A stretch of 64,000 nucleotides of DNA, taken from NCBI RefSeq assembly GCF_014696385.1, contig NZ_JACJQB010000001.1, positions 248,001 to 312,000 on the forward strand, written 5' to 3'. Made by a program: the position numbers and the translations under genes. Each line of letters opens with the position of its first letter. The stretch's first letter is position 1. Below are positions 25,798 to 59,431 of this stretch, piece by piece. This DNA comes from Pseudanabaena mucicola FACHB-723. Lineage in GTDB: Bacteria > Cyanobacteriota > Cyanobacteriia > Pseudanabaenales > Pseudanabaenaceae. The notes beneath the pieces are model-generated. The model had not been told where the DNA came from and made no database searches. It saw only the letters and a list, made by a program, of their open reading frames with translations.

Positions 25798-27681
25798 CTA
25801 GAAACTAAACTGAGTGCGGAGATTGCCGACAAATACAGTGGGATTGGTCGAGAAACTATTGGGATTAAAAATTGCGTAGAAGGCTGGAACGATCGCAATG
25901 TTCTTACTGATTGGATAGTAGTAAGACATCTCTAGGTCATACTGAGTTGCACCATCGCCACCACCAGAAGCGAGGAAATTCCGACCACTGCTATAGCTGT
26001 GAGGTACAACAAAGGAAAGAACTCCTAATGCACCTTCCTTAAATAAATCAGGCAAGGCTACTCCAAATTGGAATGCATTAACATTAACGCTACCGCCTTG
26101 AACCGCAGGATTAAGCGGTGAAATGTTTGTACTACCGTATGAGTAGCGACCAAAAATCCCCAGTCCTTTAGTGATCAACCAATCAAAGTTCAAGATAAAC
26201 GTATCTGCGGTGGCATTGTTAATTGCACCACCCTGACCATCATCAGCAACACCATAGGGTAAAGGCTCAGCGGTTGCGCCACTAATGCGACCTCCATTAG
26301 CTTTAATATTAGAGCGGGTATACAAGAACCGAATGTTAGCATCACGACTTGGTGAATAGACTAACTCAGCACTTAGAGTATTAGTTCCACCAAATAGTCC
26401 TTGTTCGGGATTGCTGGAGGTATTATTGTTAGGGGCAGTAAGAAATTCTGTATTTTCGCCAAGATAAGCCGCAGTAAGCCTAAATTGTGGATTGATTGTC
26501 CATGAGACAACTGCTCCTGATCCACGATCGACAGCATTTGACAACGTACTTCCATTGGAGTTAAAGCTAGTTGCCCCCGTTAAGAAATTAGTGAAACGGT
26601 TCCCATCAAAATAGCGATAGAAGTTTAGGCGCGGCCCAATCGCGATATTGACATTATCGGCAGCAGGGAAGCTATAAAACAACTCCCGAATATTAAAGAT
26701 ATTAGCCGTTGGTACACCTGTTTGATCTAGAAATGGTGTTCCCCAAGTATTGGTATAGCCAGCCGATACAAAGTTGTTAGCAGGAGAGTTGCCATTGCCT
26801 GTCACAAGTTGAGTCACCAAAGCATCTTTACCCGTAAATGATGTCGTGAGTGTCAAAAACAAGTAATAACTAAAGGTTACATTAGGCTTTCGAGTGACAA
26901 ACTTATTTGAGACTGTGCTTCCAGCAGGACGTGGTGTTGCAAATATGCTGCCTGCGGCATTGCGCTCAGCAATCACATCACCACCAGCAGTAGCTCCAGA
27001 GATGTTAAAGAATGCAAGCCCACTTAGCTTTGTGGTTGGGGAGAATTGCTGTGCTTCGAGCTGAGCCGTCTTTGCATCAAGGGAATCCACCCGACCACGC
27101 AAGGTTGCTAATTCAGCCGCAAATTCTTCCTGCAACTTCTGCAAAGTGGCAAGATCTTCCTGAGAGACTTTATCGGCTAGCCCTGCGGAAATAATTTCAT
27201 TGATCTTATCCAAACAAGCATTTAACCCAGCCGCAAACTCATATCTTGCTAAAGCTTTACCACCTTTAAAAGTACCGTCTGGATAACCCGCAATACATCC
27301 ATAACGCTCTACTAAAGATTGCAGTGCTGTAAAAGCCCAATCCGTTGGACGCACATCGGATAGCTGAGAAACTGATGTTACTTGAGAAACATCGGTAGTT
27401 TCGGTCAGTTTATTTACTTCTAAATTACTGACTGGCAAATCTGTGGATAAACTTAGTTGAAGATTGACAGCTTGCTCTTGGCGCTCGATTAAATTACTAA
27501 TCGATGTAGTAGCCTCTGGGGAGGTATTTGCAGATAGATTTTCTATCGATAAATTAGCTGACAACTCTTTGGATAAGTTATCAGACGCTTGAGGTACAGC
27601 CTTGGCAGGAGCCTCGTACAAAGTAGACAGTGCGACAAACATCGCTAGACATGAAAATGAACTATTGAAAGCCTTTGACAT
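25798..27681 (-). CDS. SLH-domain OprB-type porin, likely purine-regulon member
   Basis: 627 residues. Signal peptide (about 1-29), a Ser/Asn/Glu-rich spacer (30-100), SLH domain (about 103-155), coiled coil (about 160-215), and a beta-barrel ending in QFSF. It is a paralogue of the porin at 10.4 kb: 53 consecutive residues across the SLH/coiled-coil join are identical, yet the barrel is different. Between it and the divergent Rieske oxygenase gene are one degenerate and one perfect copy of the purine-regulon operator, so I infer that it admits purines or their breakdown products through the outer membrane. Confidence 0.88.
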   Translation of the reverse strand: MSKAFNSSFSCLAMFVALSTLYEAPAKAVPQASDNLSKELSANLSIENLSANTSPEATTSISNLIERQEQAVNLQLSLSTDLPVSNLEVNKLTETTDVSQVTSVSQLSDVRPTDWAFTALQSLVERYGCIAGYPDGTFKGGKALARYEFAAGLNACLDKINEIISAGLADKVSQEDLATLQKLQEEFAAELATLRGRVDSLDAKTAQLEAQQFSPTTKLSGLAFFNISGATAGGDVIAERNAAGSIFATPRPAGSTVSNKFVTRKPNVTFSYYLFLTLTTSFTGKDALVTQLVTGNGNSPANNFVSAGYTNTWGTPFLDQTGVPTANIFNIRELFYSFPAADNVNIAIGPRLNFYRYFDGNRFTNFLTGATSFNSNGSTLSNAVDRGSGAVVSWTINPQFRLTAAYLGENTEFLTAPNNNTSSNPEQGLFGGTNTLSAELVYSPSRDANIRFLYTRSNIKANGGRISGATAEPLPYGVADDGQGGAINNATADTFILNFDWLITKGLGIFGRYSYGSTNISPLNPAVQGGSVNVNAFQFGVALPDLFKEGALGVLSFVVPHSYSSGRNFLASGGGDGATQYDLEMSYYYPISKNIAIVPAFYAIFNPNSFSTNPTVFVGNLRTQFSF

Positions 27682-27722: not shown

Positions 27723-27762
27723 GCAGTAATTTGGATACCGTATACAGTATCCAAATTACTGC
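27723..27762. promoter_or_regulatory. Extended inverted repeat carrying a degenerate GntR-type operator
   Basis: Perfect 16-bp arms (27723-27738, 27747-27762) enclose CGTATACA. Within it, 27739-27753 matches the operator TGTATACAGTATACA at 12 of 15 positions. It lies 42 bp upstream of the porin start, divergent from the Rieske gene. Confidence 0.65.
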
Positions 27763-27845
27763 GATTAAACTGGAAAATTGCGATCGCTTTCTGTATTTAC
27801 AAACACAGAATGTTTGACTTCAACCCACTTAAATACCTGTAGTTG

Positions 27846-27860
27846 TGTATACAGTATACA
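27846..27860. promoter_or_regulatory. Purine-regulon operator, perfect copy
   Basis: TGTATACAGTATACA, one base before the Rieske oxygenase ATG. It includes TATACA, a -10-like hexamer placed so that transcription would begin at or next to the ATG. Confidence 0.8.
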
Positions 27861-27861
27861 A

Positions 27862-28854
27862 ATGCTAGTCACTAGTCAGCCATTATTCAAACGCTTTTGG
27901 TATCCCGTTTTACCCATGTCTTTACTTGCCGAAGACAAGCCCCAAAGCTTTCAACTACTGGGACAAAAAATTGTGGTGTGGTTAGCGGCAGAAGGTAAAC
28001 CTGCTGCTGCGCCCGATCGCTGTTGTCATCGTTCGGCTAAGCTCTCCCTCGGTAAAGTGACAGATGGATTACTAGAATGTGCCTATCATGGTTGGCAATA
28101 TGATGGCAGTGGTAGCTGTTTGCGTGTTCCTCAAATATCCACTGATGCGCCAATTCCCAAAAACTATCGCATTAACACCTATGCTTGCGAAGAGCGCTAT
28201 GGTTATGTTTGGGTATGTTTAGAAGATCCGATTAACAAAATTCCAGAACTTCCTGAAGCGAGCGATCCAGAGTTTCGATTGATTCCCGAGTTCTATGAGA
28301 TCTGGAACTGTGCGGGATTGCGGGTCATGGAAAATGAAATGGATCTCGCCCATCCCACCTTTGTGCATACGACTACTTTTGGTAGTGCAGAGCATCCCAT
28401 TCCTGAAGAGTTAGAAATTACGGAAACTGATTATGGTCTGAGAGCGACGGCAACTCTGGGTGTAGTTAATCCTGAGTCTCAGCAAAAGAATTTGAAAATG
28501 GATAGCTATATCACCCATCGCAAGCTAGAAATGGATTGGTTTATGCCCTTCACTTGCAAATTACGGATTAATTATCCCAATGGCTTAGTCCATATTGTCG
28601 TTAATACAGCGACTCCGATTGATGATAAGTCTTCGCAAATTGTACAGTTCTGTATGCGAAATGATACTGAAGAACAAACCAAAGCGGCAGATGCGATCGC
28701 CTTTGATCGACAAGTTACCTTAGAGGATAAGGCGATTTTGGAGTCAACTGATTACGATGTGCCGTTAGATGCCAAATTTGAGCAGCATATGATGACCGAT
28801 CGTCCTGGCTTACTCATGCGTCGCAAACTTGCCGCAATGCTTAGCACCGTGTAA
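27862..28854 (+). CDS. Rieske non-heme iron oxygenase, candidate purine hydroxylase (HpxD-like role)
   Basis: 330 residues. N-terminal Rieske domain (about 8-115) with Cys54-x-His56 and Cys73-x2-His76 for the [2Fe-2S] cluster. Catalytic domain with the mononuclear iron motif Asp161-x2-His164-x4-His169. The ATG at 27862 follows the operator by one base with no Shine-Dalgarno, so the mRNA is probably leaderless. The fold is that of VanA/PaO-type alpha subunits. In Klebsiella, the Rieske protein HpxD acts in hypoxanthine oxidation in the urate pathway; the setting here, under the same operator as hpxO, suggests a similar step. No reductase partner is seen in the window. The substrate is inferred only. 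Confidence 0.85.
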   Translation: MLVTSQPLFKRFWYPVLPMSLLAEDKPQSFQLLGQKIVVWLAAEGKPAAAPDRCCHRSAKLSLGKVTDGLLECAYHGWQYDGSGSCLRVPQISTDAPIPKNYRINTYACEERYGYVWVCLEDPINKIPELPEASDPEFRLIPEFYEIWNCAGLRVMENEMDLAHPTFVHTTTFGSAEHPIPEELEITETDYGLRATATLGVVNPESQQKNLKMDSYITHRKLEMDWFMPFTCKLRINYPNGLVHIVVNTATPIDDKSSQIVQFCMRNDTEEQTKAADAIAFDRQVTLEDKAILESTDYDVPLDAKFEQHMMTDRPGLLMRRKLAAMLSTV

Positions 28855-29243: not shown

Positions 29244-29278
29244 AGTATACTGTATTTGATAATTGCATACTGTATACA
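29244..29278. promoter_or_regulatory. Two purine-regulon operator copies in the HIU hydrolase divergon
   Basis: 29264-29278 is TGCATACTGTATACA (14 of 15 to the consensus). 29244-29258 is a weaker copy (about 11 of 15) that touches the HIU hydrolase ATG. The pair is spaced 20 bp centre to centre, about two helical turns. Confidence 0.7.
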
Positions 29279-29311: not shown

Positions 29312-29704
29312 ATGACCACATCTAACGGTACAAGACGAGTATTTATCTGCGGTTCGGCATTGCGGGGACAGCCCGATCATGGCAATTTGCAAGGCGCAAA
29401 ATTTATCCGTACTGCTAATACCCAATCACGCTATCGACTTCATGCGGCTGGCGACGGTTGGCATCCTGCGATTTACGAAGTAGAAACAGGTGGTATTTCT
29501 ATTCCTGGAGAAGTCTATGAGATGCAAGCCGATGAATTTGAATACCTCGCTAGTAACGAGCCTCCTCATATGTATCCTACGGATGTTTATTTGGAAGATG
29601 GCGAAGTATTGACAGCTTTCTTTTATCCCCAAGAGCTAATTGAAAAATTTAATTGGAAAGATATTTCCGATCTTGGTGGTTGGGCTGCTTACAAAAGCGC
29701 CTAG
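29312..29704 (+). CDS. Allophanate-hydrolase C-terminal-like / gamma-glutamylcyclotransferase-fold protein
   Basis: 130 residues. The sequence VFICGSALRGQPDHGNL, then HPAIYEVETGG and IPGEVYEM, fits the small C-terminal domain of allophanate hydrolase (AGCT fold), here as a stand-alone protein without the amidase domain. In allophanate hydrolase this domain decarboxylates or assists turnover of the amide product. Its role next to urate genes is unknown. Start ATG 29312 (a TTG at 29303 is also in frame). Divergent from HIU hydrolase under shared operators; its end lies in a bidirectional terminator. Confidence 0.75.
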   Translation: MTTSNGTRRVFICGSALRGQPDHGNLQGAKFIRTANTQSRYRLHAAGDGWHPAIYEVETGGISIPGEVYEMQADEFEYLASNEPPHMYPTDVYLEDGEVLTAFFYPQELIEKFNWKDISDLGGWAAYKSA

Positions 29705-29750
29705 ACTAAGAGAAAATGGCTCGCTTTGCGAGCCATTTTCTCTTAGTCTA
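29702..29750. terminator. Bidirectional terminator between convergent genes
   Basis: Perfect 23-bp arms with a TTT loop flanked by GC (apex CGCTTTGCG). It includes the stop of the allophanate-like gene and lies seven bases from the end of the convergent ring-opening amidohydrolase gene. Confidence 0.9.
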
Positions 29751-29756
29751 TACGTT

Positions 29757-30827
29757 TTAGTCTAGACGAGCGATCGCCGCAACTGCCCCACCACCAGAAG
29801 GTCCTTGATGTTCCGCACCTCCCGATACATAAACCATCGGATCTTGGACAATAGAAGCCACTACTGCCCCAACCACTGCCCTTGCCATGCGCGTATGGTT
29901 AATATCGGAGTCATCCATCATCGTATGTCTTCTGCCTAAAAGCTGTCCCGTTGGGTCAGCTTCAGCTTTGGCAAATATATTTACGACCCGATCGCTGGTT
30001 TGACCTGTGGAGGCGATCGCTTTAGTAACTGCCTCAGCATCTAGAGCGTGTTGCATCACACTATGACCAATCACAAAATTGCTAGTGGATGTTGGTGCAT
30101 TCCCTAATACCAAAATCTCGCAGTTGCGTAACTCCACCCCTGCGGATGTGGAGGCAACGCTGGAATACAAAGCATAATTTTGGCAAATATCGGCGGCGGT
30201 GAGATCTTCTAATTGAACTTCACCTAGGGCAACCGCTACGCCTAGCGCTGAGGCTCCGCGCGAGTAACCCATTGACTGATAGCTGCTTACCGATTTACTC
30301 ACTGATTTCGCATCACGATCTTCATCGAGCAAGCGATCGCGACTGGTGACAAGGGGACATTTAATCTGGACAAAATGCACATCCTCTTTAGCGATTCCTG
30401 CGGTAGCGATCGCTTGATTCACGGCTAGAGCGACTTCTTTGACCATCGTTAACGAACCAATTTCCGCAGGAGTAAAATCACGGGTATGAATCACTCCTAG
30501 GGTTAAAGCCATACGAGTTGGGGTGTCTGGCAATGAAGCTTGACTTGTAAAAATTGTTAAATGGGGGCTTAAGGCTCCCTCAGTCCCCCCAGACATGACA
30601 TAGACGATCTCTGCCGATTTGTCCTGACCTACAAAATTTGCAAGGTAGTGCTTTAAAGTTTGCACCGCAAAGCCGCGCGTAAAATCATTAACACAGCCAT
30701 TTCCTTCGGTCTTTCCCATAATCGCGACAATGTGCTGGGGATTAATTTTACCTGAAGCGATCGCCGCCTCTAGAGACGTGAGATCATCAGGACTATTTTG
30801 CGGAAGCTTATATACATCAACTTTCAT
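29757..30827 (-). CDS. Cyanuric acid hydrolase/barbiturase family ring-opening amidohydrolase
   Basis: 356 residues with three internal repeats, each contributing a Lys/Ser pair to one active site. Repeat 1: GKTEGNGCVNDFTRG (Lys39), VMSGGTEG (Ser79). Repeat 2: VQIKCPLV (Lys156), YSSVASTSAGVE (Ser near 226). Repeat 3: NIFAKAEADP (Lys287), YVSGGAEHQGPSGGG (Ser335). Details such as MGYSRGASALG and SGGAEHQGP are closer to cyanuric acid hydrolase (AtzD/TrzD) than to barbiturase as I recall them. It opens six-membered N-heterocycles. It probably ends the hpxO-uraD-puuE operon (38 bp gap). Its natural substrate in a purine setting is unknown. Confidence 0.88.
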   Translation of the reverse strand: MKVDVYKLPQNSPDDLTSLEAAIASGKINPQHIVAIMGKTEGNGCVNDFTRGFAVQTLKHYLANFVGQDKSAEIVYVMSGGTEGALSPHLTIFTSQASLPDTPTRMALTLGVIHTRDFTPAEIGSLTMVKEVALAVNQAIATAGIAKEDVHFVQIKCPLVTSRDRLLDEDRDAKSVSKSVSSYQSMGYSRGASALGVAVALGEVQLEDLTAADICQNYALYSSVASTSAGVELRNCEILVLGNAPTSTSNFVIGHSVMQHALDAEAVTKAIASTGQTSDRVVNIFAKAEADPTGQLLGRRHTMMDDSDINHTRMARAVVGAVVASIVQDPMVYVSGGAEHQGPSGGGAVAAIARLD

Positions 30828-30865: not shown

Positions 30866-31768
30866 TTAGGCTGGTTTGTGGTGCTTGTGCCAATGACGAG
30901 CAATGTCAATACGGCGACAAATCCAGACGCGATCGCGACTCTGTATATAGTCTAAAAATCTTGCCAAAGCTGCTGCTCGTCCTGCTCTACCCACTAACCG
31001 ACAATGCAAACCAATACTCATCATTTTGGGAGAAGTGTCGCCTTCGTCGTAGAGAACATCAAAGGCATCACGCAAATAGGCAAAAAACTGATCGCCCGAA
31101 TTAAAGCCTTGGGGTGTGGCAAAGCGCATATCGTTGTTGTCGAGGGTATAGGGAATAATTAGGTGAGGCTTGCCATATTCATAGTTCCAATAGGGAAGAT
31201 CGTCGGCATAGCTATCGGAATCGTAGAGAAAACCTCCTTCTTCTACAACTAAGCGGCGGGTATGCTCGCTAGTGCGCCCCGTATACCATCCGAGGGGGCG
31301 TGTTCCTGTAATCTCTGTATGAATAGCGATCGCCTTTTGCAGATGTTCGCGCTCTTGTTCGGGCGAAAAATATTTGTAATCAATCCAACGATAGCCATGA
31401 CTAGCGATTTCCCAATCGGCTTCTAGCATGGCGGTAACTGCTTCAGGATTACGAGCGAGTGCCATCGCAATACCGTAAATAGTTACAGGAATATTGCGAT
31501 CGCAAAACATCCGATATAAGCGCCAAAATCCTGCACGACTGCCATATTCATAGCAAGATTCCATATTCATGTGACGCAATCCATTAAAAGGAACTGCGCC
31601 CACAATTTCTGACAAAAAAGTTTCAGAGGCACTGTCTCCATGTAGGATACAAGTTTCGCCGCCTTCTTCATAATTAATCACAAACTGGACAGCCACACGA
31701 GCATTGTCTTTCCATTTTGCATCAGGAGTAAATCTCCCGTAGCCAATCATGTCTCTGGGGTAGGTCAT
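30866..31768 (-). CDS. puuE: Allantoinase, PuuE type
   Basis: 300 residues, polysaccharide-deacetylase fold, cytoplasmic. It carries the PuuE signature series: YPRDMIGYG at the N terminus, NYEEGGE, MESCYEYGSRAGFWRL, SHGYRWIDYK, GWYTGRTSEHTRR, YDSDSYADDLPYW and GLHCRLVGRAGR. It opens allantoin to allantoate without the metal centre of classic allantoinases. Third gene after hpxO and uraD on the minus strand, separated from uraD by a 46-bp palindrome that could attenuate readthrough. Confidence 0.96.
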   Translation of the reverse strand: MTYPRDMIGYGRFTPDAKWKDNARVAVQFVINYEEGGETCILHGDSASETFLSEIVGAVPFNGLRHMNMESCYEYGSRAGFWRLYRMFCDRNIPVTIYGIAMALARNPEAVTAMLEADWEIASHGYRWIDYKYFSPEQEREHLQKAIAIHTEITGTRPLGWYTGRTSEHTRRLVVEEGGFLYDSDSYADDLPYWNYEYGKPHLIIPYTLDNNDMRFATPQGFNSGDQFFAYLRDAFDVLYDEGDTSPKMMSIGLHCRLVGRAGRAAALARFLDYIQSRDRVWICRRIDIARHWHKHHKPA

Positions 31769-31804: not shown

Positions 31805-31850
31805 TAAAAATTAGTAGGGGCAATTCATGAATTGCCCCTACTAATTTTTA
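31805..31850. terminator. 46-bp perfect palindrome spanning the uraD stop codon
   Basis: Fully self-complementary over 23 bp per arm with no loop, core AATTCATGAATT. The uraD stop lies inside it. Possible partial terminator or mRNA-stabilising hairpin between uraD and puuE. Confidence 0.8.
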
Positions 31851-32341
31851 ACTGCTAAAACTAACCGCCATCTGGCAATTTCGATAATTTCAGCGATCGC
31901 CTGATTTTTTTCTACTTCTAAATTGTTCTTAAGTCTCTGCTCAAAAGCGGCGAGAATACTATCTTTGGTATGGTTGCGAACGGCGATGATAAAAGGGAAT
32001 GAGAACTTATCTTTGTAGGCTTGATTAAGATTTTGAAAGCGATCGTATTCTATAGCGGAGAGTTGATCGAGTCCGACGGTGGATTGCTCCTGTACTGAGG
32101 CTTCTGCCATTTTGAATTTACTACCCAGATCGGGATGAGCGCAAATTAACTTTAATTTCTCCGCGTCGTTCATTGCCATCACGATCGCTGCCATGACTTG
32201 ATGTAAATTCTGGACATCAGCAAAAGGACACGATCGCCATGCTTCGGCAGCTATTTCGGGTGTATGTTCAAAGATCGAACCGAGCGCTTCGGTAAATTCT
32301 GCTTGACTCATTTGATTGAGAGTGTTGATCGGATAACTCAA
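31841..32341 (-). CDS. uraD: OHCU decarboxylase
   Basis: 166 residues, all helical. The family motifs CAHPDLGSK (catalytic His) and NQAYKDKFSFPFIIAV are present. It decarboxylates 2-oxo-4-hydroxy-4-carboxy-5-ureidoimidazoline to S-allantoin. The start is TTG at 32341, overlapping the hpxO stop as TTGA, which implies translational coupling; an ATG ten codons in is possible but would cut into the conserved N-terminal helix. Confidence 0.94.
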   Translation of the reverse strand: MSYPINTLNQMSQAEFTEALGSIFEHTPEIAAEAWRSCPFADVQNLHQVMAAIVMAMNDAEKLKLICAHPDLGSKFKMAEASVQEQSTVGLDQLSAIEYDRFQNLNQAYKDKFSFPFIIAVRNHTKDSILAAFEQRLKNNLEVEKNQAIAEIIEIARWRLVLAVKN

Positions 32342-33507
32342 TGTAATGGACCTCCACTAATAATTTTGGCGATCGCACTGGTGACATCTGAGGGGCTTTC
32401 CTGTGAGAGTTGGTCATACCACTTTTGGGTAACTTCAGGATCTTTGCCATGAATAGCTTCTGCACGATTACGCGCTTTATTTACGATTTCTGTAGTTCTC
32501 ACCTTGCGTTCTTTCTCGTAACGCATCAGGGCATCGGTGACACTTACATTAGTTGATAATAGATAGTTGGCGATGACAAAGCCATCTTCGAGGGCTTGAC
32601 ATCCTCCCTGTCCTAAATCTGGACAAGTCGCATGAGCCGCATCACCCAACAGAGCCACCCGACCTTTGACCATTTTTTCAATAGGTCCTACGTCATGAAT
32701 TTCCACCCTTGCAACATTCTCAGGATCGAGGCGATCGATTAATAGCTGCACAGGCTTTGCCCAATTGTGAAAATGTTCCTTGAGTTCATGACGATAGTTA
32801 GTACGATCATTGGTTGTGCCTGTAGGTAGTGGCACATCAAAAAAGAAATAAAAGCGATCGCCAGCAACAGGCATCAATGAGGCGCGTTTGTGTTCTCCCA
32901 CATAGATCGACCACATATCCGCAGGTGCAAGATCTCCACTAATTGGAACTAATCCATTCCAATTCACATAACCCCGATAGGTTGGTTCAATTGTTTTATT
33001 GAGAACATATTTTCGCAACAAGGAACGCACTCCGTCAGCAGCAATTAATACATCGCCTGTGGCAGAGCTTCCATCTTCAAACTTAGCACTAACATCGCGA
33101 TCGCTTTCTACGCAATCAATACATTTAGTACCCAGAGTTATTGTGCCGCCGAGGGACTCAAATGATGATAAGAGAAGATTTTGTAAATCTCGTCTTGCTA
33201 CAGGGTAAGGGCGTTGACCGACTTCATCGATTAAAGGTTGAAGCGGAATTTCGTTGAGTAAGCTCCCCGACAAATGGCGGTACTCCATCCGATTCATCTG
33301 TCCGCCGATCGCTGCCATTTTGTCCCCTAGCCCAAGTCGATTGAGAACTTTCACTCCATTTGACCAGAGCGAAATCCCTGCACCCGTAGGACGTAAGTCT
33401 CTTACGCGATCGTAAATCTCTACTTCATAGCCCGCCTGTCGCAGCGCAATTCCTGCCGTCAGACCGCCAATACCCGCACCGATTATGATTGCTTTTAAAC
33501 CGTACAC
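32338..33507 (-). CDS. hpxO: FAD-dependent urate hydroxylase HpxO
   Basis: 389 residues from the GTG at 33507, which has an AGGAA upstream; the frame runs on to 33543 but that would start inside the operator. FAD Rossmann motif IIIGAGIGGLTAG at the N terminus, the DG/GD region LLGDAAHATCPDLGQGG, and HpxO-specific stretches YVNWNGLVPI, SLMPVAGDRFYFFFDVPLP and ISGGPLH at the end match Klebsiella HpxO closely from memory. It converts urate to 5-hydroxyisourate with NADH and O2. First gene of the hpxO-uraD-puuE-amidohydrolase operon. Confidence 0.96.
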   Translation of the reverse strand: MYGLKAIIIGAGIGGLTAGIALRQAGYEVEIYDRVRDLRPTGAGISLWSNGVKVLNRLGLGDKMAAIGGQMNRMEYRHLSGSLLNEIPLQPLIDEVGQRPYPVARRDLQNLLLSSFESLGGTITLGTKCIDCVESDRDVSAKFEDGSSATGDVLIAADGVRSLLRKYVLNKTIEPTYRGYVNWNGLVPISGDLAPADMWSIYVGEHKRASLMPVAGDRFYFFFDVPLPTGTTNDRTNYRHELKEHFHNWAKPVQLLIDRLDPENVARVEIHDVGPIEKMVKGRVALLGDAAHATCPDLGQGGCQALEDGFVIANYLLSTNVSVTDALMRYEKERKVRTTEIVNKARNRAEAIHGKDPEVTQKWYDQLSQESPSDVTSAIAKIISGGPLH

Positions 33508-33527
33508 TAACTCATTCCTGCACAAAA

Positions 33528-33542
33528 TGTATACTGTATACA
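33528..33542. promoter_or_regulatory. Purine-regulon operator, perfect copy, at hpxO
   Basis: TGTATACTGTATACA, a perfect palindrome around one central base, 20 bp upstream of the hpxO GTG. Confidence 0.85.
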
Positions 33543-33767
33543 TAGTTATTTCTAACCATTGTATATCAAGTTACAAAGCCTCAGTGCTTACACAAAAGCA
33601 ACTTAAATCTCAACAGATTTTTTCCTCGGATAATGCCGCTTTCAAGATGGTTTATTTGGCAATCATGATTTGTTTTTTTGTCAATCACTACAATACTCTC
33701 ATCCAATCTAAGATTCTTATTATTCCCCCTTGATCCCCCACCCCTTTTTTTATATTGAATTTTATAA

Positions 33768-34472
33768 ATGTTATTAGCTATGAAAAGTAATTCCTTAGAT
33801 CAACTTTTTTACTCCAGTCTGGTCACTGAACATATTGTCCCCAAAGGCAGAGATTTTGCTTTTAAAAGATGGCATAACAAATTAGTTGAATCTGCAAAGC
33901 AATATGACGGCTTTTTACGATGCGATCTCTCCCCACCGCTTAGATGTAAAGATCAAATTGTCAAGTGGTATTACATTACACATTTTGATTCGCCTGAGCA
34001 TCTGAATGAATGGATGGAATCAAGTGAGCGCAAACAGTTATTAGAATCTGGACGAGAAGTATTTTCTGCTTATCGATTTAAGTCTTTTACAACTGGCTTA
34101 GAAGGCTGGTTCTCAATGCAGTCAGGTAATTCAGAATATAAAGGATTAGGTCCTTCGCGATGGAAGCAGATTTTAGCAGTCGTTTTAGGGCTGTATCCTG
34201 TGGTGATGATCCAAGCGATCGCCTTTTCAATTTTAAAACTGATGCAATCTTGGTCATTAGCAAACTCAATGATTGTGAACAACCTAATTACTTCCACAAT
34301 ATTGAGCTTCGCAGTAATGCCTTTTGTATCAAAGCGGTTAAGTTTTTGGTTGCGCCCAGCCTATCTACCGATATCCCGTAGAGCTAATTTAATCGGTACA
34401 ATTATTGTCTTTGTTAGCTTGGGGTTAATGGTAATCATATTTAATTTGGCGTTAGCACTCATACCGCAATAA
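33768..34472 (+). CDS. Antibiotic-biosynthesis-monooxygenase-like membrane protein
   Basis: 234 residues. The N-terminal part (about 15-110) looks like a dimeric alpha-beta barrel (ABM-like; KRWHNKLVESAKQYDGFLRCD, WYYITHFDSPEHLNEWMES). The C-terminal part (about 130-232) has three hydrophobic segments. This ABM plus membrane-anchor layout is known from conserved bacterial proteins without a firm function. It sits between hpxO and the NCS2 permease but has no operator within 200 bp of its start, so regulon membership is unproven. Its end overlaps a bidirectional terminator. Confidence 0.7.
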   Translation: MLLAMKSNSLDQLFYSSLVTEHIVPKGRDFAFKRWHNKLVESAKQYDGFLRCDLSPPLRCKDQIVKWYYITHFDSPEHLNEWMESSERKQLLESGREVFSAYRFKSFTTGLEGWFSMQSGNSEYKGLGPSRWKQILAVVLGLYPVVMIQAIAFSILKLMQSWSLANSMIVNNLITSTILSFAVMPFVSKRLSFWLRPAYLPISRRANLIGTIIVFVSLGLMVIIFNLALALIPQ

Positions 34473-34518: not shown

Positions 34519-35961
34519 CTAAGCAGTATTTTCTTGGGTTACAAGAACTTCATCCTCAAAACGAGGCAATAGCCAACTAAGTAAAATAGCGGTCAAACCA
34601 CCTGTAGAGATAGCAGAACCAAAGAGGTTACTGAAAATCGGTGGTTTACCTACGAAAATATCAGGCACAAATACTACTCCTAAGCCTAAACCAAGGGATA
34701 CTGCAACAATAATCATTGAACGGCGATCCAGTCCTGCGGATACGACGATATTTAAACCCGCTACAGCGATCGAACCAAACATAACTAGAGTTGCACCCCC
34801 CAAAACAGGCTGTGGCAGAGCTTGAAATACACCACCAATCACAGGTAACAACCCTAGGATTGCAAAAATGCCAGCTACAAAAAAACCAACATAACGACTA
34901 CCTACGCCCGTCATCTGAATCACACCATTATTTTGGCTAAAGGTAGTGTTAGGAAATGTGTTGAGAACCGCAGCAATTAATGAATTAATTCCATCTCCCA
35001 GAACTCCACCCTTAATACGACGAATATATACTCCACCTTTGACTGGTTCTCCAGACACTGCTGAAGTTGCTGTTAAATCGCCAACAGTTTCGATCGCTGT
35101 CAAAATATAGAGCAGAATGAAGGGCAAGAAGGCTCCAAAGTCAAAACTGATGCCATAACGAAGAGGGATTGGAATTCTGAAGAAGGGAAGTTGACTTAGT
35201 GAGCTAAAGTTAACAATACCAAGGAACAGAGAGATAATAAAGCCAACTACTAGCCCGATGGCGATCGCACCCATTCTCAAAAAGCGGTTACTAGAAAGGG
35301 TCAAAATCACCACGATTAGCAGAACTGTTGCACCCAGAGCAAGGTTTTGAAGGCTGCCAAAGGAACCATCTTTTTTAGCTAAAGCGACCGCACCACCAGC
35401 TAAGCTAATCATCCCAGTTTTAATCAGTCCTAAACCAATAATCATTACCACCGTTCCAGAAACAACGGGAGTGATGATTTTATTTAAGAGATGTAAAAAC
35501 TGACTCAAAATAATTTCGACAAAAGCCCCAAACAAGCAAACTCCAAAGATCAGAGCTAGAGCTTGTTCTGGAGAACTACCTTTTTGGATCGCAACAGTTC
35601 CTACACCTAAAATCGGTCCTAGGAAAGCAAAACTGGTTCCTTGTAAACTTAGTAAACCTGAGCCAACAGGGCCAATTCTTTTACATTGAATATAAGTACA
35701 AATTCCAGAGGCAAAGAGCGACATACTAATCAAATAGCTAGTATTCGCTGCGTCTAATCCCAAGCTAGTACAGATAATAATTGGCGGCGTAATGATGCCA
35801 ACAAAGGCTGCCAGAACATGCTGAAAAGCCACAAAAATTGCTTCTATAACAGGGGGTTTATCATTAAGCCCGTAAATTAGTCCAGATTTACTGACTACTG
35901 GAGTCTCTGCGATGTTGTTGTCATATTCATCATCTAGGGCGAGAGCCTTTTCTGCATCCAT
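34519..35961 (-). CDS. NCS2 family xanthine/urate permease
   Basis: 480 residues from the ATG at 35961. Ten to fourteen hydrophobic segments. The NCS2/NAT signature reads QNNGVIQMTGVGSRYVG, whose QNxG form is typical of xanthine and urate transporters such as XanQ and UapA. It would bring purines across the inner membrane for the hpxO pathway. A perfect operator copy lies 35 bp upstream, so it is regulon-controlled. An in-frame extension to 36039 would run through the operator and is rejected. Confidence 0.92.
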   Translation of the reverse strand: MDAEKALALDDEYDNNIAETPVVSKSGLIYGLNDKPPVIEAIFVAFQHVLAAFVGIITPPIIICTSLGLDAANTSYLISMSLFASGICTYIQCKRIGPVGSGLLSLQGTSFAFLGPILGVGTVAIQKGSSPEQALALIFGVCLFGAFVEIILSQFLHLLNKIITPVVSGTVVMIIGLGLIKTGMISLAGGAVALAKKDGSFGSLQNLALGATVLLIVVILTLSSNRFLRMGAIAIGLVVGFIISLFLGIVNFSSLSQLPFFRIPIPLRYGISFDFGAFLPFILLYILTAIETVGDLTATSAVSGEPVKGGVYIRRIKGGVLGDGINSLIAAVLNTFPNTTFSQNNGVIQMTGVGSRYVGFFVAGIFAILGLLPVIGGVFQALPQPVLGGATLVMFGSIAVAGLNIVVSAGLDRRSMIIVAVSLGLGLGVVFVPDIFVGKPPIFSNLFGSAISTGGLTAILLSWLLPRFEDEVLVTQENTA

Positions 35962-35995
35962 AATGTCTTGCTTACGTGATTTGAAATGTGGACTC

Positions 35996-36010
35996 TGTAT
36001 ACTGTATACA
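35996..36010. promoter_or_regulatory. Purine-regulon operator, perfect copy, at the NCS2 permease
   Basis: TGTATACTGTATACA, 35 bp upstream of the permease ATG on the minus strand. Confidence 0.85.
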
Positions 36011-36077
36011 AAAAAGCTGAATGATTCCGCTAGAATCACTACAAAATCAGAAATCCCTTCTCTTCTTGTGTTAAAAA

Positions 36078-39097: not shown

Positions 39098-39580
39098 TTA
39101 AGATGCTTTTGCCATTTGTTCTAAAATTCGCTGCACAATATTTAAACCCGTAAGCATTTGCCACGAGAAAATTCCAATAATTATTGCGTTAATTGAGATA
39201 TGGGAAACTCTTGCCCATTCTTTTCCCTGTTGCATTAATGGTGCGAGAGAAGCTGATGTCGCGGCTAAAAATGCTAACCCTAAGCCTGCAAATAAGTGTG
39301 CCCCGATTGCAAGTTTGCCACTGCTGTTATAGGTGACTGCCATTCCTCCAATTGCACCTCCGACCATTAGCACCAAAAAGACTGCTCCGATTTTGTAATG
39401 CTGAAGGTTGTAACGCTTAGATATTAATGCTTTCTTGATTTCGCCTTCAGATCTCCGCGCCTTGCGATATTGCAGTCCTAAGTAGGCTGCATAAATGGCG
39501 GTGGCAAAGGTGACAGTCATCAATACTGGATGGATAAATGTCACAATCGGCTGCAAGGGCTGTGGAATAGGAATAACCAT
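39098..39580 (-). CDS. DUF4079-type four-helix membrane protein with conserved His
   Basis: 160 residues, four hydrophobic helices. Histidines at 17, 61, 95 and 127 fall near one end of each helix, a pattern like that of cytochrome b561-type di-heme proteins. Whether it binds heme is inference. A perfect operator copy lies 67 bp upstream of its ATG with no other gene between, so it appears to be controlled with the purine genes. A role as electron donor for the Rieske oxygenase is one possibility; there is no direct evidence. Confidence 0.75.
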   Translation of the reverse strand: MVIPIPQPLQPIVTFIHPVLMTVTFATAIYAAYLGLQYRKARRSEGEIKKALISKRYNLQHYKIGAVFLVLMVGGAIGGMAVTYNSSGKLAIGAHLFAGLGLAFLAATSASLAPLMQQGKEWARVSHISINAIIIGIFSWQMLTGLNIVQRILEQMAKAS

Positions 39581-39646
39581 AGAACTCTTAAGACTCAGTA
39601 ACTGAGTGAATAAACTTTCTAAAATTTTAGAATGTACATTTATCTA

Positions 39647-39661
39647 TGTATACAGTATACA
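39647..39661. promoter_or_regulatory. Purine-regulon operator, perfect copy, at the DUF4079 gene
   Basis: TGTATACAGTATACA, 67 bp upstream of the DUF4079 ATG. Confidence 0.8.
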
Positions 39662-53497: not shown

Positions 53498-54307
53498 TTA
53501 CCTTGCCCAGTAAATCACTTTCTTTTCTATGGCGACAAATAAGGCGTATAGCATCACACCCAGAATCGCAAGGGCAATCAACGCGGCAAAAGCAAGAGGC
53601 ACATTAAAATCTGATGCGGCCTGTACGATCAGATAACCTAAACCTGCATTAGAAGCGATCGACTCAGCAATTACGGCTCCGATAAAGGAAAAGGAAACTG
53701 CGATTTTGAGAGAAGCGAATACATAGGGTAAGGTATGTGGCCAGCCAACTTTCTGGAATATCTCAAAATCAGATGCTCCCAAAGCATGTAAAACATCTTT
53801 CATCTCTGGTTCAATGGTTTCTAAACCTAGAGCGACATTAACTGCGATCGGAAAAAATGCTAACAAGAAGGCGGTGACGATCGCAGGAATGGCATTAGCG
53901 CCAAACCAGACTGCTAGCAATGGTACTAGTGCTGACTTTGGAATTGTATTAAAGGCAACTAGTAACGGATAGAAAGTTAGATAAATGAATCTAGAGTAAC
54001 CAATTAGAAAACCTAAAACTACACCAACGACGCTTGCGATCGCAAAACCTGCAAAGGTCGTCCAGACTGTTCTCAAAGAGTTTTCAGCAAGTTGAGGTGC
54101 AAACTTGATAGTTGCTTCTAAAATTTTGGAAGGTGCAGGTAAATTAAAAGGCTGAATCTTCAAAGCCCATACTGCAAATTCCCAGATGATAAATAATACA
54201 ACTGTGGCGATCGCTGGCAAAATGACCGTCGCAGCTTTAGTATTCAGAAAAGCATTAAAGTCAAACTTCTTGGGCGATCGTCTTGCATTCTCAATAGTTC
54301 CCTGCAT
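53498..54307 (-). CDS. ABC transporter permease (NitT/TauT-SsuC family)
   Basis: 269 residues, about six membrane helices, with the EAA-type loop NVALGLETIEPEMKDVLHALGAS and GWPHTLPYVFASLKIA that binds the ATPase. Third gene of the transporter; partners upstream are the ATPase and NMT1/THI5-type binding protein. Substrate inferred to be a purine or catabolite from the operator and neighbours. Confidence 0.9.
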   Translation of the reverse strand: MQGTIENARRSPKKFDFNAFLNTKAATVILPAIATVVLFIIWEFAVWALKIQPFNLPAPSKILEATIKFAPQLAENSLRTVWTTFAGFAIASVVGVVLGFLIGYSRFIYLTFYPLLVAFNTIPKSALVPLLAVWFGANAIPAIVTAFLLAFFPIAVNVALGLETIEPEMKDVLHALGASDFEIFQKVGWPHTLPYVFASLKIAVSFSFIGAVIAESIASNAGLGYLIVQAASDFNVPLAFAALIALAILGVMLYALFVAIEKKVIYWAR

Positions 54308-54360
54308 ATTTTCTCCTGATGATCATTGTCATATAAGTAGCTAGGCAAAATTAAATATAA

Positions 54361-54413
54361 AACCTTCAAAGCTATAGCGCACGTATAGTGTTCGCTACAG
54401 CTCTGAAGGTTTA
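54361..54413. terminator. Imperfect hairpin between ABC ATPase and permease genes
   Basis: AAACCTTC/GAAGGTTT outer arms and AGCTATAGCG/CGCTACAGCT inner arms with bulges; overlaps the ATPase stop. Inside an operon it may act as attenuator. Confidence 0.55.
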
Positions 54414-55235
54414 GTTTTTATGAATATGACGACGTAATTCGGCGGCAAGGTGAGCAAACTCATCACTGAGACACATTTCTAGAGTTCTTGGACGAGGTAA
54501 ATCAATATTCAATTTGAAAGCAATCTCGCTGGGTCTAGGACTCATTACATAAACTGTATCTGATAAAAATACAGCTTCTCTCAAATCATGGGTAATTAGA
54601 ATCCCCACGCATTTTGCTTCCATCCACAACTTTTGCAGCATTACCCACATTTCTTCACGGGTAAAGGCATCTAGCGCCCCAAATGGTTCATCTAATAGTA
54701 GGATTTCTGGCTTATGAATCAAGGAACGACAAAGGGAAGCTCTCTGACGCATACCACCAGATAACTGCCAAGGGAACTGCTGTTGAAAATCCTTTAAACC
54801 TACTGCCTGCAATAATTTTTGTGCCATCTCCACGTAATAAGCGTGATTAACTTTAAAATCGCGTTTATAAGGATGTACTACTTCTAATGGCAATAATACA
54901 TTATCAATAGTCCTCCGCCAAGGTAGTAATACCGGATTCTGGAAAGCAATACCCACATTTTTGAGTGGTTTGGTGACGGGTTGCCCATGACATCGCAACT
55001 CACCAATTTTAGTTGGACTTAAGCCTGAAACCATTCGTAAAATCGAAGTTTTACCGCATCCACTAGGTCCGACAAAGGAGACAAATTCACCAGCTTTGAT
55101 ATCAAGTGAGATTTCTTGAATAATCTGACGCATTGATTCGCCAAATGGATATTCCAAACCAATACGATCAAATTCTAACAAGGGTATAGAATGAGTAGCA
55201 GTTTCAGCAGAAGAGGAAGTTATAGGCTGAACCAT
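54411..55235 (-). CDS. ABC transporter ATP-binding protein (NitT/TauT-SsuB family)
   Basis: 274 residues. Walker A GPSGCGKTS, signature LSGGMRQRASLCRSL, Walker B ILLLDEPFGALDA, His switch in ITHDLREA. Short N-terminal Ser/Thr-rich stretch before the domain. Second gene of the transporter operon. Confidence 0.93.
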   Translation of the reverse strand: MVQPITSSSAETATHSIPLLEFDRIGLEYPFGESMRQIIQEISLDIKAGEFVSFVGPSGCGKTSILRMVSGLSPTKIGELRCHGQPVTKPLKNVGIAFQNPVLLPWRRTIDNVLLPLEVVHPYKRDFKVNHAYYVEMAQKLLQAVGLKDFQQQFPWQLSGGMRQRASLCRSLIHKPEILLLDEPFGALDAFTREEMWVMLQKLWMEAKCVGILITHDLREAVFLSDTVYVMSPRPSEIAFKLNIDLPRPRTLEMCLSDEFAHLAAELRRHIHKN

Positions 55236-55288
55236 TTTAGCTGTGCCTTTTAATTAAGTATTAAAGATCAAACCCAACAAGAGTTTTA

Positions 55289-55321
55289 AAAGCACAAAAT
55301 GGCATAGTCATTTTGTGCTTT
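55289..55321. terminator. Hairpin between binding-protein and ATPase genes
   Basis: Perfect 13-bp arms AAAGCACAAAATG/CATTTTGTGCTTT with a seven-base loop, five bases past the binding-protein stop. Confidence 0.7.
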
Positions 55322-55325
55322 GGTA

Positions 55326-56468
55326 TTAAAGTAATGGTTTACGCTCGCTAGCAGGAGGAATCATCCGTTGTTCTTTAGGAGGTAAAAACTTGTCGGTAAA
55401 CAAATCTGCGGAGGTAACAGGATTCAATTTGAAACCTTCGACAGTTTGAGCGATACTCTTATCGAGCCGTTTCATGTCCGCACTCCCTAAACCAGATGCT
55501 TCTAATTCTGGAGTCACATACATCCGTTCGAGGGCAAGTTTTAGACGTAGCTTCTCTGCATCTCGATCCATTAACTTACTTTGATCTGTGGATACAACTA
55601 AATCAAGGGCAGCACTAGGATCTTTGATAACCTCCTGCATTGCGCGAAAATAGGCTTTGAGGAAAGCTTTGATTGCTTCAGGATTTTTGGTCATGAAATC
55701 TTGTTTGACTAAAATGCCATTACCATAAAAATCTAGACCATATTCGTCATAGAAAAAGATTTGGATATCTTCCATTGTCTTTCCACCCTTGATCAAGGAT
55801 GGAATAACTGAAGTGTAGAAACCACTGACTGCGTCAACCTTACCTTGTAGCAAAAAGGTCTCACGCAGCTTGGGTTCCATTGTATCCCAAGTAACTGAAT
55901 CAGGAGAGATTTTGACTTCTTTTGCCAAAAGTGGAAATAGCTTGCGAGGTCCATCCCCTGCTGGCGCACCAAGCTTTTTACCAACTAAGTCCGCAGGACT
56001 TTTAATTCCATTTGCCTTGAAGGTGACAATCGAGAAAGGAGCTTTATTTTGATAAAAGGCTACGGCAAGAATCTTGTCATTAGGATTTTTGTCATTAAAC
56101 TCCATTGCATTATAGATATCGCTAAATGCCATGTCATATTTGCCAGTACCCAACTTACTAATGGTATCTGCGTTCCCAAAACCGCGTTCGTAGCTGACAT
56201 TCAATCCTTCTTCTGCAAAATAACCTTTTTCGATCGCCCAAATTAGCGGTGCATCAAGACTTTGCTTTAGAAAAGGAAGCTGCACACGAATATCTTGTTT
56301 AGTCTTTTGATCAGGATTTCCTGACTGGGGCGTTGTTGCTGTTGTTGCAGGCTTATCGCCAGAGGTTGTACTTGGGCTTGGTGGTGCAGTGTTACAAGCA
56401 GCAAGCACTGTTGTGGAAACTGCAATAAAAAGAATTCTGTGTAACTGTTTCTTGAAAGTATGAAGCAT
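55326..56468 (-). CDS. NMT1/THI5-type ABC substrate-binding lipoprotein
   Basis: 380 residues. Lipoprotein signal (cleavage before Cys in VLAACN), Ser/Thr/Pro-rich linker, then a two-lobed binding domain: LPFLKQSLDAPLIWAIEKGYF, with GLNVSYERGFGNAD, KLGAPAGDGPRKLF, FYGNGILVKQDFM. The family binds HMP-thiamine precursors, taurine, nitrate or other small molecules. A perfect operator 23 bp upstream places it under the purine regulator, so a purine or ureide ligand is plausible. Confidence 0.88.
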   Translation of the reverse strand: MLHTFKKQLHRILFIAVSTTVLAACNTAPPSPSTTSGDKPATTATTPQSGNPDQKTKQDIRVQLPFLKQSLDAPLIWAIEKGYFAEEGLNVSYERGFGNADTISKLGTGKYDMAFSDIYNAMEFNDKNPNDKILAVAFYQNKAPFSIVTFKANGIKSPADLVGKKLGAPAGDGPRKLFPLLAKEVKISPDSVTWDTMEPKLRETFLLQGKVDAVSGFYTSVIPSLIKGGKTMEDIQIFFYDEYGLDFYGNGILVKQDFMTKNPEAIKAFLKAYFRAMQEVIKDPSAALDLVVSTDQSKLMDRDAEKLRLKLALERMYVTPELEASGLGSADMKRLDKSIAQTVEGFKLNPVTSADLFTDKFLPPKEQRMIPPASERKPLL

Positions 56469-56490
56469 TATCTCTCTGCAAAGCTAAATA

Positions 56491-56505
56491 TGTATACTGT
56501 ATACA
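56491..56505. promoter_or_regulatory. Purine-regulon operator, perfect copy, at the ABC transporter
   Basis: TGTATACTGTATACA, 23 bp upstream of the binding-protein ATG. Confidence 0.85.
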
Positions 56506-56544
56506 GAACCAATCTGTATTTAAGGTTAGTAGCTATAAAGTTTC

Positions 56545-56560
56545 TGTATACAGTAATACA
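56545..56560. promoter_or_regulatory. Second, imperfect operator at the ABC transporter
   Basis: TGTATACAGTAATACA differs from the consensus by one inserted base; it is 54 bp upstream of the perfect copy, centre to centre. Confidence 0.5.
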
Positions 56561-56581
56561 TAGATATCTATACCTCTTATC

Positions 56582-56646
56582 GGTCTAAAGAGCAGAAGAC
56601 GAATTGCGGATATTTGCACCGTAATTCGTCTTCTGCTCTTTAGACC
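56582..56646. terminator. Terminator hairpin spanning the deaminase stop codon
   Basis: 28-base arms (56582-56609, 56619-56646) with one mismatch and a nine-base loop. The stem reaches into the last codons of the deaminase gene. Confidence 0.8.
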
Positions 56647-58001
56647 TGCAACATCGCAAGAGATAATTTATTTGTCCGTTCAATCAGCATTGGTAGATCG
56701 ACAGTAGCTAATTGCCCACGATCAATTACCATTCGACCATTAATAAAACTGTAATCCACATTCCCGACAGGACAAAAAATCAAAGCAGCGACTAAGTCGT
56801 GATGTGCCCCTGCAAACTCTGGACGATCCACATTTATGGCAATGAAATCTGCCGCCATCTGAGGAGCGATCGCACCAATGTCATCTCTCCCCAATACCTT
56901 CGCGCCGCCTAATGTAGCGACTTCTAAAATATCTCTCGCGGTCATTGACTTAGCATCGCCACTACCGACCCTTGCTAAGAGAAAAGCAGTTCTAGCTTCT
57001 TGCATCAAGTTCCCGATGTCATTGGAAGCGGAACCATCTACCCCCAAGCCCACAGGCACACCATGATTAAGCATTTTCCGAATTGATGCAATGCCACTCG
57101 CTAGACGCATATTGCTACAAGGACAATGCGCCACACCAGTGCCAGTGCGTCCAAATTTTAAAATTGCCCGATCACTTAACTTCACACAATGGGCGTGCCA
57201 GACATCATCACCAAGCCAACCGACTGATTCCGCATAGTCTTCAGGAGTCATTCCAAACTTCTGCAAACTATAATCAATATCAGATTGGTTTTCCGCAAGA
57301 TGAGTATGCAGTCTCACACTGGTATAGGATCGCGCCATTCTTGCCGACTCGCGCATGAGGTCAGGAGAAACGGAGAAAGGTGAACAGGGAGCCAATGTCA
57401 TTCGCAACATCGAATAGCGCGAAGGATCGTGATACTGTTCGATTAATCGTTGGGAATCTTTGAGAATATCTGCTTCCTTCTCCACTAAACTATCTGGAGG
57501 TAAGCCCCCAAGACTCTCGCCCACACTCATACTGCCGCGACTGGCATGAAAACGGATTCCGATCGCTTTCATCGCCGCAATTTCATCATCTAAGGTGCAG
57601 TCATTGGGATAGATATAGAGGTGATCGCTAGCAGTGGTGCAGCCAGAAAGCATGAGTTCGGCGGCGGCCATCTGAGCACTCACATAGACACCTTCAGCAG
57701 TCAGCTTTGACCAAATGGGATAGAGTGTTTTTAACCAGTTGAATAAATCGCAATTTTGAGCATCGGGAACTACTTTCGTCAGAGTTTGGTAGAAATGATG
57801 GTGGGTATTGACTAACCCTGGCATGACGATATGTCGTCCTTGCAAATCGAGAACTTGATCCGCCTCTTGAGGTAAATCTTCAGTTAGTCCTACCTGTGCG
57901 ATCGCCTGATCTTGCACAAAAATTGCCACATTATGAAGCTCACGGCGATCGCGATCCATTGTCACCAAAGTATGAATATTTTTGACAAGAACTGTACCCA
58001 T
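56640..58001 (-). CDS. 8-oxoguanine deaminase-like amidohydrolase
   Basis: 453 residues, ATG at 58001. Metal-dependent amidohydrolase (TIM barrel): GLVNTHHHFYQTLTKVV (metal HxH), HLAENQSDIDYSLQKFG (parts), WHAHCVKL, and metal Asp in GVDGSASND. The segment DYSLQKFGMTPEDYAES and WLGDDVWHAHC match the 8-oxoguanine deaminase branch as I recall it. The product of 8-oxoguanine deamination is urate, which would feed HpxO. The family also includes guanine- and triazine-deaminases. It follows the AllC-like gene on the same strand. Confidence 0.85.
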   Translation of the reverse strand: MGTVLVKNIHTLVTMDRDRRELHNVAIFVQDQAIAQVGLTEDLPQEADQVLDLQGRHIVMPGLVNTHHHFYQTLTKVVPDAQNCDLFNWLKTLYPIWSKLTAEGVYVSAQMAAAELMLSGCTTASDHLYIYPNDCTLDDEIAAMKAIGIRFHASRGSMSVGESLGGLPPDSLVEKEADILKDSQRLIEQYHDPSRYSMLRMTLAPCSPFSVSPDLMRESARMARSYTSVRLHTHLAENQSDIDYSLQKFGMTPEDYAESVGWLGDDVWHAHCVKLSDRAILKFGRTGTGVAHCPCSNMRLASGIASIRKMLNHGVPVGLGVDGSASNDIGNLMQEARTAFLLARVGSGDAKSMTARDILEVATLGGAKVLGRDDIGAIAPQMAADFIAINVDRPEFAGAHHDLVAALIFCPVGNVDYSFINGRMVIDRGQLATVDLPMLIERTNKLSLAMLQV

Positions 58002-58025
58002 TACAATTTACCTTCTAGGTTTTAT

Positions 58026-58073
58026 AGTGAACAACTTTGGGGGGCGGCTCCACTGCCCCCAAAGTTGTTCACT
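58026..58073. terminator. Hairpin between AllC-like and deaminase genes
   Basis: 18-bp perfect arms (58026-58043, 58056-58073) with a GC-rich apex, 15 bases past the AllC-like stop; about 45 bases before the deaminase region begins. Confidence 0.75.
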
Positions 58074-58087
58074 GGGAAGACTAAAGA

Positions 58088-59332: not shown

Positions 59333-59357
59333 AGTCTAACTTTTTTTATGGTAATTT

Positions 59358-59371
59358 CTGTGATATCACAG
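59358..59371. promoter_or_regulatory. Second palindrome in the AllC/GntR intergenic region
   Basis: CTGTGATATCACAG, a perfect 14-bp palindrome, 15 bases from the GntR-type operator. Not a CRP site by spacing; binder unknown. Confidence 0.35.
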
Positions 59372-59385
59372 ATCATAGTGCATAC

Positions 59386-59400
59386 AATATACTGTATACA
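59386..59400. promoter_or_regulatory. Purine-regulon operator at the AllC/GntR divergon
   Basis: AATATACTGTATACA, 13 of 15 to the consensus, between the AllC-like gene and the GntR regulator; suggests autoregulation. Confidence 0.75.
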
Positions 59401-59431
59401 TAGCGATTTTTCGTTAGGAGTTTTTTGATTA

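Follow-up and report, generated by a model that had tools for sequence, protein, structure and literature searches.

Cyanuric acid is best known as a pollutant. The window analysed here, by which we mean the whole 64,000-nucleotide stretch of DNA, carries a gene for a predicted cyanuric acid hydrolase (CAH) of the AtzD family among genes for urate breakdown, facing a second gene that encodes the C-terminal domain of allophanate hydrolase (AH_C) as a protein of its own. What do two such proteins do in a urate locus? An earlier reading of this DNA, made from the sequence alone, traced both to triazine and biuret chemistry and took their position as a hint of a natural role in the breakdown of purines or oxidised purines. 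Our analysis treats the two proteins separately. The stand-alone AH_C protein, here called AHC2, is a previously unassigned, constant partner of the uric acid pathway. Its neighbour is, with strong support from every sequence test, a genuine CAH by prediction, and a role in the disposal of oxidised purines is plausible for it.

The urate locus and its operator

The first block of the locus runs from a Rieske/VanA_C oxygenase (27787-28854, + strand) through 5-hydroxyisourate hydrolase (HIUH; TIGR02962; 28884-29279, - strand), AHC2 (130 residues; 29312-29704, +), the AtzD-like gene (356 residues; 29757-30827, -), the allantoinase PuuE (30866-31768, -; TIGR03212, 541.5 bits against a cut-off of 424.6), OHCU decarboxylase (31841-32341, -; TIGR03164) and the FAD-dependent urate hydroxylase HpxO (32338-33543, -; NF033623, 607.5 bits, cut-off 500) to orf234 (33768-34472, +) and an NCS2 nucleobase permease (34519-36039, -). 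AHC2 is divergent from HIUH and, as the sequence-only reading had placed it, convergent with the AtzD-like gene; a near-perfect inverted repeat between the two convergent genes (29709-29751, approximate borders) is, from its sequence, probably a bidirectional terminator. The loci nearest to this one, at 94% protein identity, belong to Phormidium tenue FACHB-1050 and Pseudanabaena sp. SR411.

At 53501-60118 the regulon has a second block. It comprises an ABC transporter (permease, ATPase and substrate-binding protein; 53501-56468, -), an 8-oxoguanine deaminase (56649-58001, -), an M20 allantoate-amidohydrolase-like enzyme (58091-59332, -) and a GntR/FCD regulator (59432-60118, +). The deaminase is 91% identical to its orthologue in ABRG5-3, which scores 675 bits on NF006055 (cut-off 532), and the M20 assignment is likewise based on the orthologue. 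In ABRG5-3, the cluster hpxO-uraD-puuE-atzD-AHC2-uraH is found together with the 8-oxoguanine deaminase, M20 and GntR genes on a 134-kb plasmid.

The regulon is defined by an operator, the 15-mer TGTATACNGTATACA, which occurs with at most one mismatch at seven sites in the window, compared with none on first-order Markov shuffles. These sites precede the Rieske gene (operators at 27732 and 27846), HIUH and AHC2 (TGCATACTGTATACA, 29264-29278, between the two), HpxO (TGTATACTGTATACA, 33528-33542, at its start), the NCS2 permease (35996-36010), the ABC transporter (56491-56505) and a DUF4079-like ORF, and a weaker site with two mismatches lies between the M20 and GntR genes. The GntR/FCD protein is the presumed binder of TGTATACNGTATACA. 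In front of AHC2, the operator is conserved in 20 of 21 Pseudanabaena genomes, including those in which AHC2 and HIUH lie far from HpxO, and it is exact in two other genera. The AtzD-like gene of the window has no operator of its own. Since 38 bp separate it from the preceding gene, PuuE, which has the same orientation, it is probably transcribed from the hpxO promoter, and the operator at the HpxO start would thereby control hpxO-uraD-puuE-atzD. The earlier assignment of both genes to an operator-controlled urate locus thus stands, for AHC2 through its own site and for the AtzD-like gene through the hpxO operon.

Several other genes of the window touch on this locus. In several further genera, homologues of the Rieske/VanA_C oxygenase with 61-68% identity have HpxO or AHC2 close by, and the enzyme is possibly an HpxD-like purine oxygenase. 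The product of orf234, which is divergent from HpxO, has no Pfam match; a 61% homologue is encoded about 5 kb from AHC2 in genome G289. An iron-uptake-type porin beside the cluster (25798-27681) is a recurrent neighbour of HIUH and AHC2 in Pseudanabaena. Finally, a perfect operator at 39647, outside the known urate genes, lies upstream of a gene for a small membrane protein (39098-39661), DUF4079-like by eye.

AHC2 and the urate pathway

AHC2 consists of an AH_C domain and no more. It scores 103.5 bits on PF21986 (Pfam gathering cut-off 27), a profile search for an amidase domain on it found none, and on full-length allophanate hydrolase models it reaches 54.8-64.9 bits, far below their cut-offs of 487-511, so that it is not an AtzF/TrzF-type enzyme. 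The sequence-only reading had therefore recognised the domain correctly, including the absence of its amidase. About 45 positions are near-invariant over 43 sequences; an AlphaFold model built from a three-sequence alignment has a mean pLDDT of 41.8.

The distribution of AHC2 is exact. Among 386 cyanobacterial genomes, window-type AH_C proteins, taken as those with about 50% identity or more, are present in 25 of the 25 that carry HpxO (20 genera) and in none of the remaining 361. The same holds within Pseudanabaena, where all 21 genomes with HpxO have AHC2 and the five without HpxO lack it. In most of the 25 genomes of the phylum sample, AHC2 is located on another contig than HpxO or far from it. 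Outside Pseudanabaena it is often found beside PuuE and a GntR gene, and an M20 allantoate-amidohydrolase-like gene lies within about 5.5 kb of it in 15 of 23 HpxO-bearing genomes. Co-distribution, operator and M20 neighbourhood together identify AHC2 as a component of the urate pathway that is independent of AtzD. This is the strongest result of the analysis: AHC2 is a constant member of the pathway and forms an orthologous group of its own. The proposed descent of both proteins from triazine and biuret chemistry is consequently wrong for AHC2. Import of AHC2 and AtzD as one triazine module is ruled out by the 20 of 25 HpxO-bearing genomes that have AHC2 and no AtzD homologue; because AHC2 tracks HpxO and occurs without AtzD, the two genes are separate partners.

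Within allophanate hydrolase, AH_C is the domain that deals with an N-carboxylated intermediate. By analogy, AHC2 would act in the main urate pathway, most likely by decarboxylating the N-carboxy (carbamate) compound that the M20 allantoate amidohydrolase leaves, N-carboxy-ureidoglycine, and the genomic context of AHC2 supports such a role. It is also conceivable, if rather unlikely in our judgement, that AHC2 is not a carbamate decarboxylase and instead fills the missing ureidoglycine step, as an aminohydrolase or lyase, after allantoate amidohydrolase. The co-occurrence of AHC2 with the pathway is indeed obligate, AllE (ureidoglycine aminohydrolase) exceeds its cut-off in none of the 25 HpxO-bearing genomes, and ureidoglycolate lyase has no match in the window genome and weak ones elsewhere, in genomes with and without HpxO alike, so that the lyase does not discriminate between the two groups. 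However, the known reaction of AH_C in allophanate hydrolase concerns an N-carboxylated intermediate, and the paralogue AHC1 pairs with biuret hydrolase (BiuH), in a pathway where ureidoglycine is not formed.

Of 26 Pseudanabaena genomes, 24 have BiuH, and these same 24 are the ones that encode AHC1. Its gene is next to, or a short way from, BiuH or the second hydrolase of the BiuH cluster in genomes G289, G296, G129 and G008 and has adjacent coordinates in G133 and G308; in the window genome, AHC1 and BiuH are on different contigs. The thread common to the AH_C contexts is the hydrolysis of a ureide amide that leaves an N-carboxylated product. A broader proposal, which we advance tentatively and consider doubtful as a whole, is that stand-alone AH_C proteins are general, pathway-specific decarboxylases of N-carboxylated ureides (AHC2 for allantoate, AHC1 for biuret or triuret, and a third kind with AllFG-like proteins and carbamate kinase on E. 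coli plasmids), and that cyanuric acid is a natural product of purine oxidation for which the AtzD fold was first selected.

The AtzD-like protein and the source of cyanuric acid

The AtzD-like protein scores 479.7 bits on the NCBIfam equivalog model 'cyanuric acid amidohydrolase' (NF052395, cut-off 360) and 477.5 bits on PF09663; Moorella CAH is its best match in the PDB and hence the nearest solved structure. Its residues were mapped by alignment to 4nq3, the sequence of the Azorhizobium CAH structure, and compared with the published catalytic and specificity residues of the family (PMC3758960, PMC4051656). All three Lys/Ser pairs that the sequence-only reading had reported are in place (K39/S79, K156/S228 and K287/S335), and the active-site arginines R51, R190 and R316 are all of the CAH type. 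Peat et al. proposed that CAH can be told from barbiturase by Arg195, Thr321, Arg325, Gly345 and Gly346 in AtzD numbering (PMC3758960). The corresponding residues here, R190, T312, R316, G336 and G337, are of the CAH type in five cases out of five, and the barbiturase signature (Asn, His, Lys, Val, Ser/Ala) was sought and is absent from these positions. On these residues a barbiturase was rejected, and the earlier impression that the protein is closer to AtzD is supported. Dyads, specificity residues and equivalog score thus agree on a CAH, a strong assignment at the level of sequence from which the activity is predicted. The CAH signature is also retained by the remaining Pseudanabaena copies. 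Of the two copies in genome G005, the closer one keeps it and its paralogue has lost it.

AtzD homologues are rare. They exceed the cut-off in five of the 386 cyanobacterial genomes (G000, G193, G005, G008 and G170), the G008 copy being a remnant and that of G170 frame-shifted. All five belong to the 25 genomes with HpxO and to the 13 with BiuH. The chance of five AtzD-bearing genomes falling among the 25 is 8e-7, or 3e-4 when counted by genus, with phylogeny ignored in both figures. In Pseudanabaena, AtzD is present in 14 of 26 genomes, all of them among the 21 with HpxO (p = 0.012, uncorrected). The restriction to cyanobacteria with both HpxO and BiuH supports a link to urate or oxidised purines without proving it; the co-occurrence could instead mirror a common nitrogen-scavenging lifestyle. 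Conversely, AtzD homologues are lacking from seven HpxO-bearing Pseudanabaena and from 20 of the 25 HpxO-bearing genomes of the phylum sample, which makes AtzD dispensable for urate breakdown.

In five of the 14 AtzD-bearing Pseudanabaena (G000, G402, G394, G390 and G399), the gene is physically linked to urate genes. The remaining nine are found away from the urate cluster, in varied neighbourhoods and with no operator within 300 bp, which rules out the urate operator as a conserved feature of these nine genes; one of them, in G388, is about 6 kb from an 8-oxoguanine deaminase. Membership of the regulon is therefore not conserved across the relatives. In the tree, the linked copies cluster together with weak support, a topology compatible with a single relocation into the operon.

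Two AtzD-family genes occur in G005 (L028 2770-5381), with a GlcG-like gene between them, and adjoin genes for a GntR regulator, an ABC substrate-binding protein and a cytosine-deaminase-like fragment. Several dyad residues have been lost from the first copy.

Published work reports that cyanuric acid forms when uric acid (PMC7948467, Fig. 1) or 8-oxoguanine (PMC4666366, PMC10607741) is oxidised. We propose that the AtzD-like enzyme opens cyanuric acid to 1-carboxybiuret, which would yield biuret for the BiuH pathway encoded on another contig. Contig C63 of the window genome indeed carries a cluster that pairs BiuH (410 bits against a cut-off of 370) with a second BiuH-like hydrolase. Cyanobacterial BiuH clusters comprise a BmpA-Nup transporter, a CN hydrolase or AHC1, BiuH, an ABC ATPase, a cupin and a second cysteine hydrolase, and their presence provides the AtzD-like product with an outlet. 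In this lineage, the AtzD gene would have been placed last in the hpxO-uraD-puuE operon and thereby brought under the urate regulon. Its natural substrate would most likely be cyanuric acid formed in these cells by oxidation of urate and 8-oxoguanine, compounds that the rest of the regulon catabolises; such a source is in keeping with the oxygen chemistry of phototrophic cells and with an 8-oxoguanine deaminase under the same control. We hold the explanation as a whole, a genuine CAH acting on oxidised-purine cyanuric acid under the urate regulon with AHC2 as a separate decarboxylase, with middling confidence. Of the natural purine role suggested earlier, the co-occurrence with HpxO and BiuH, the operon position and the co-regulated deaminase speak in favour, and the unlinked, operator-free state of most Pseudanabaena copies speaks against.

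A different account, possible but in our view improbable, is that the enzyme is a CAH for environmental cyanuric acid and that its place in the urate operon is incidental, the gene being one of several for nitrogen scavenging in flexible or plasmid DNA. The strict CAH signature and the nine unlinked copies agree with this account, as do the plasmid location of the ABRG5-3 cluster and the rhizobial CAH gene found in a BmpA/BiuH uptake cluster that resembles the cyanobacterial one. It does not account well for the restriction of AtzD homologues to HpxO-bearing cyanobacteria, nor for the lineage in which AtzD is a member of the operon flanked by puuE and AHC2, an arrangement that five genomes retain. 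That the enzyme opens another ring (barbiturate, or an oxidised urate product such as alloxan or parabanate) as a true side step of the urate pathway seems very unlikely: its operon position, the Polaromonas family member encoded with PuuE-like, ureidoglycolate-lyase-like and dihydropyrimidinase genes, and the one assayed family member with neither CAH nor barbiturase activity (PMC3758960) allow for it, but all five specificity residues are those of characterised CAHs and the genome encodes the BiuH product route.

Comparison with known systems

AHC2 shares its PF21986 domain with the C-terminal domain of allophanate hydrolase (AtzF/TrzF and the Kluyveromyces lactis enzyme), from which it differs in standing alone, in its own motif FICGSALRGQPD and in having urate genes, not an amidase, as its partners. 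The pathway that it accompanies resembles the Klebsiella hpx and E. coli all ureide pathways in the functions of HpxO, HIU hydrolase and OHCU decarboxylase and in an allantoate-amidohydrolase-like step, and differs from them in that the 25 cyanobacterial genomes have no AllE over the cut-off. To our knowledge, AHC2 has not been described in either pathway. Confirmation of its reaction would fill a missing step, or supply a helper, of bacterial ureide catabolism and would give a role to a family whose members currently carry the annotation 'gamma-glutamylcyclotransferase', 'glutamyl-tRNA amidotransferase' or 'hypothetical protein'.

AtzD-family and stand-alone AH_C genes outside cyanobacteria keep varied company. 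TrzD-kind CAH genes occur in Bacillota as well as on conjugative plasmids of enterobacteria, Klebsiella among them (L127 7001-14636; L019 8116-17478; L022; L026), with an NCS2 permease and DUF2877/FdrA/DUF1116 (AllHFG-like) proteins; carbamate kinase joins the cluster on the plasmid, which makes a carbamoyl-phosphate-yielding route for cyanuric acid possible. On E. coli plasmids (L130 2420-9630), a third kind of stand-alone AH_C shares one cluster with a BiuH-like hydrolase, FdrA, a DUF1116-like protein, carbamate kinase and a cytosine permease. A Polaromonas plasmid (L128 2809-13380) carries an AtzD-family gene, with Ser at the Thr321 position, together with genes for a PuuE-like deacetylase (below cut-off), a ureidoglycolate-lyase-like protein, a racemase and a dihydropyrimidinase.

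Rhodococcus barbiturase (Bar) belongs to the same fold family as the AtzD-like protein, but its Asn/His/Lys/Val/Ser signature is not that of the window protein. With Moorella CAH, TrzD, AtzD and the rhizobial CAH, in contrast, the likeness extends to full-length homology, three Ser/Lys dyads and the CAH specificity residues. Clustering of BiuH with a second BiuH-like hydrolase in the window genome parallels the triuret/biuret cluster (TrtA, BiuH, BmpA-Nup), and the rhizobial biuret cluster is nearly the same as the cyanobacterial BiuH cluster, except that it includes the CAH gene, whereas the AtzD gene of the window lies in the urate operon. More generally, the CAH relatives that we examined adjoin biuret, allophanate (atz) or NCS2/AllFGH-like genes, while this one is placed in a urate and 8-oxoguanine regulon. 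Such a placement in some freshwater cyanobacteria suggests damaged purines as a possible natural source of cyanuric acid, and a CAH under this regulon in BiuH-bearing phototrophs makes that source concrete and testable.
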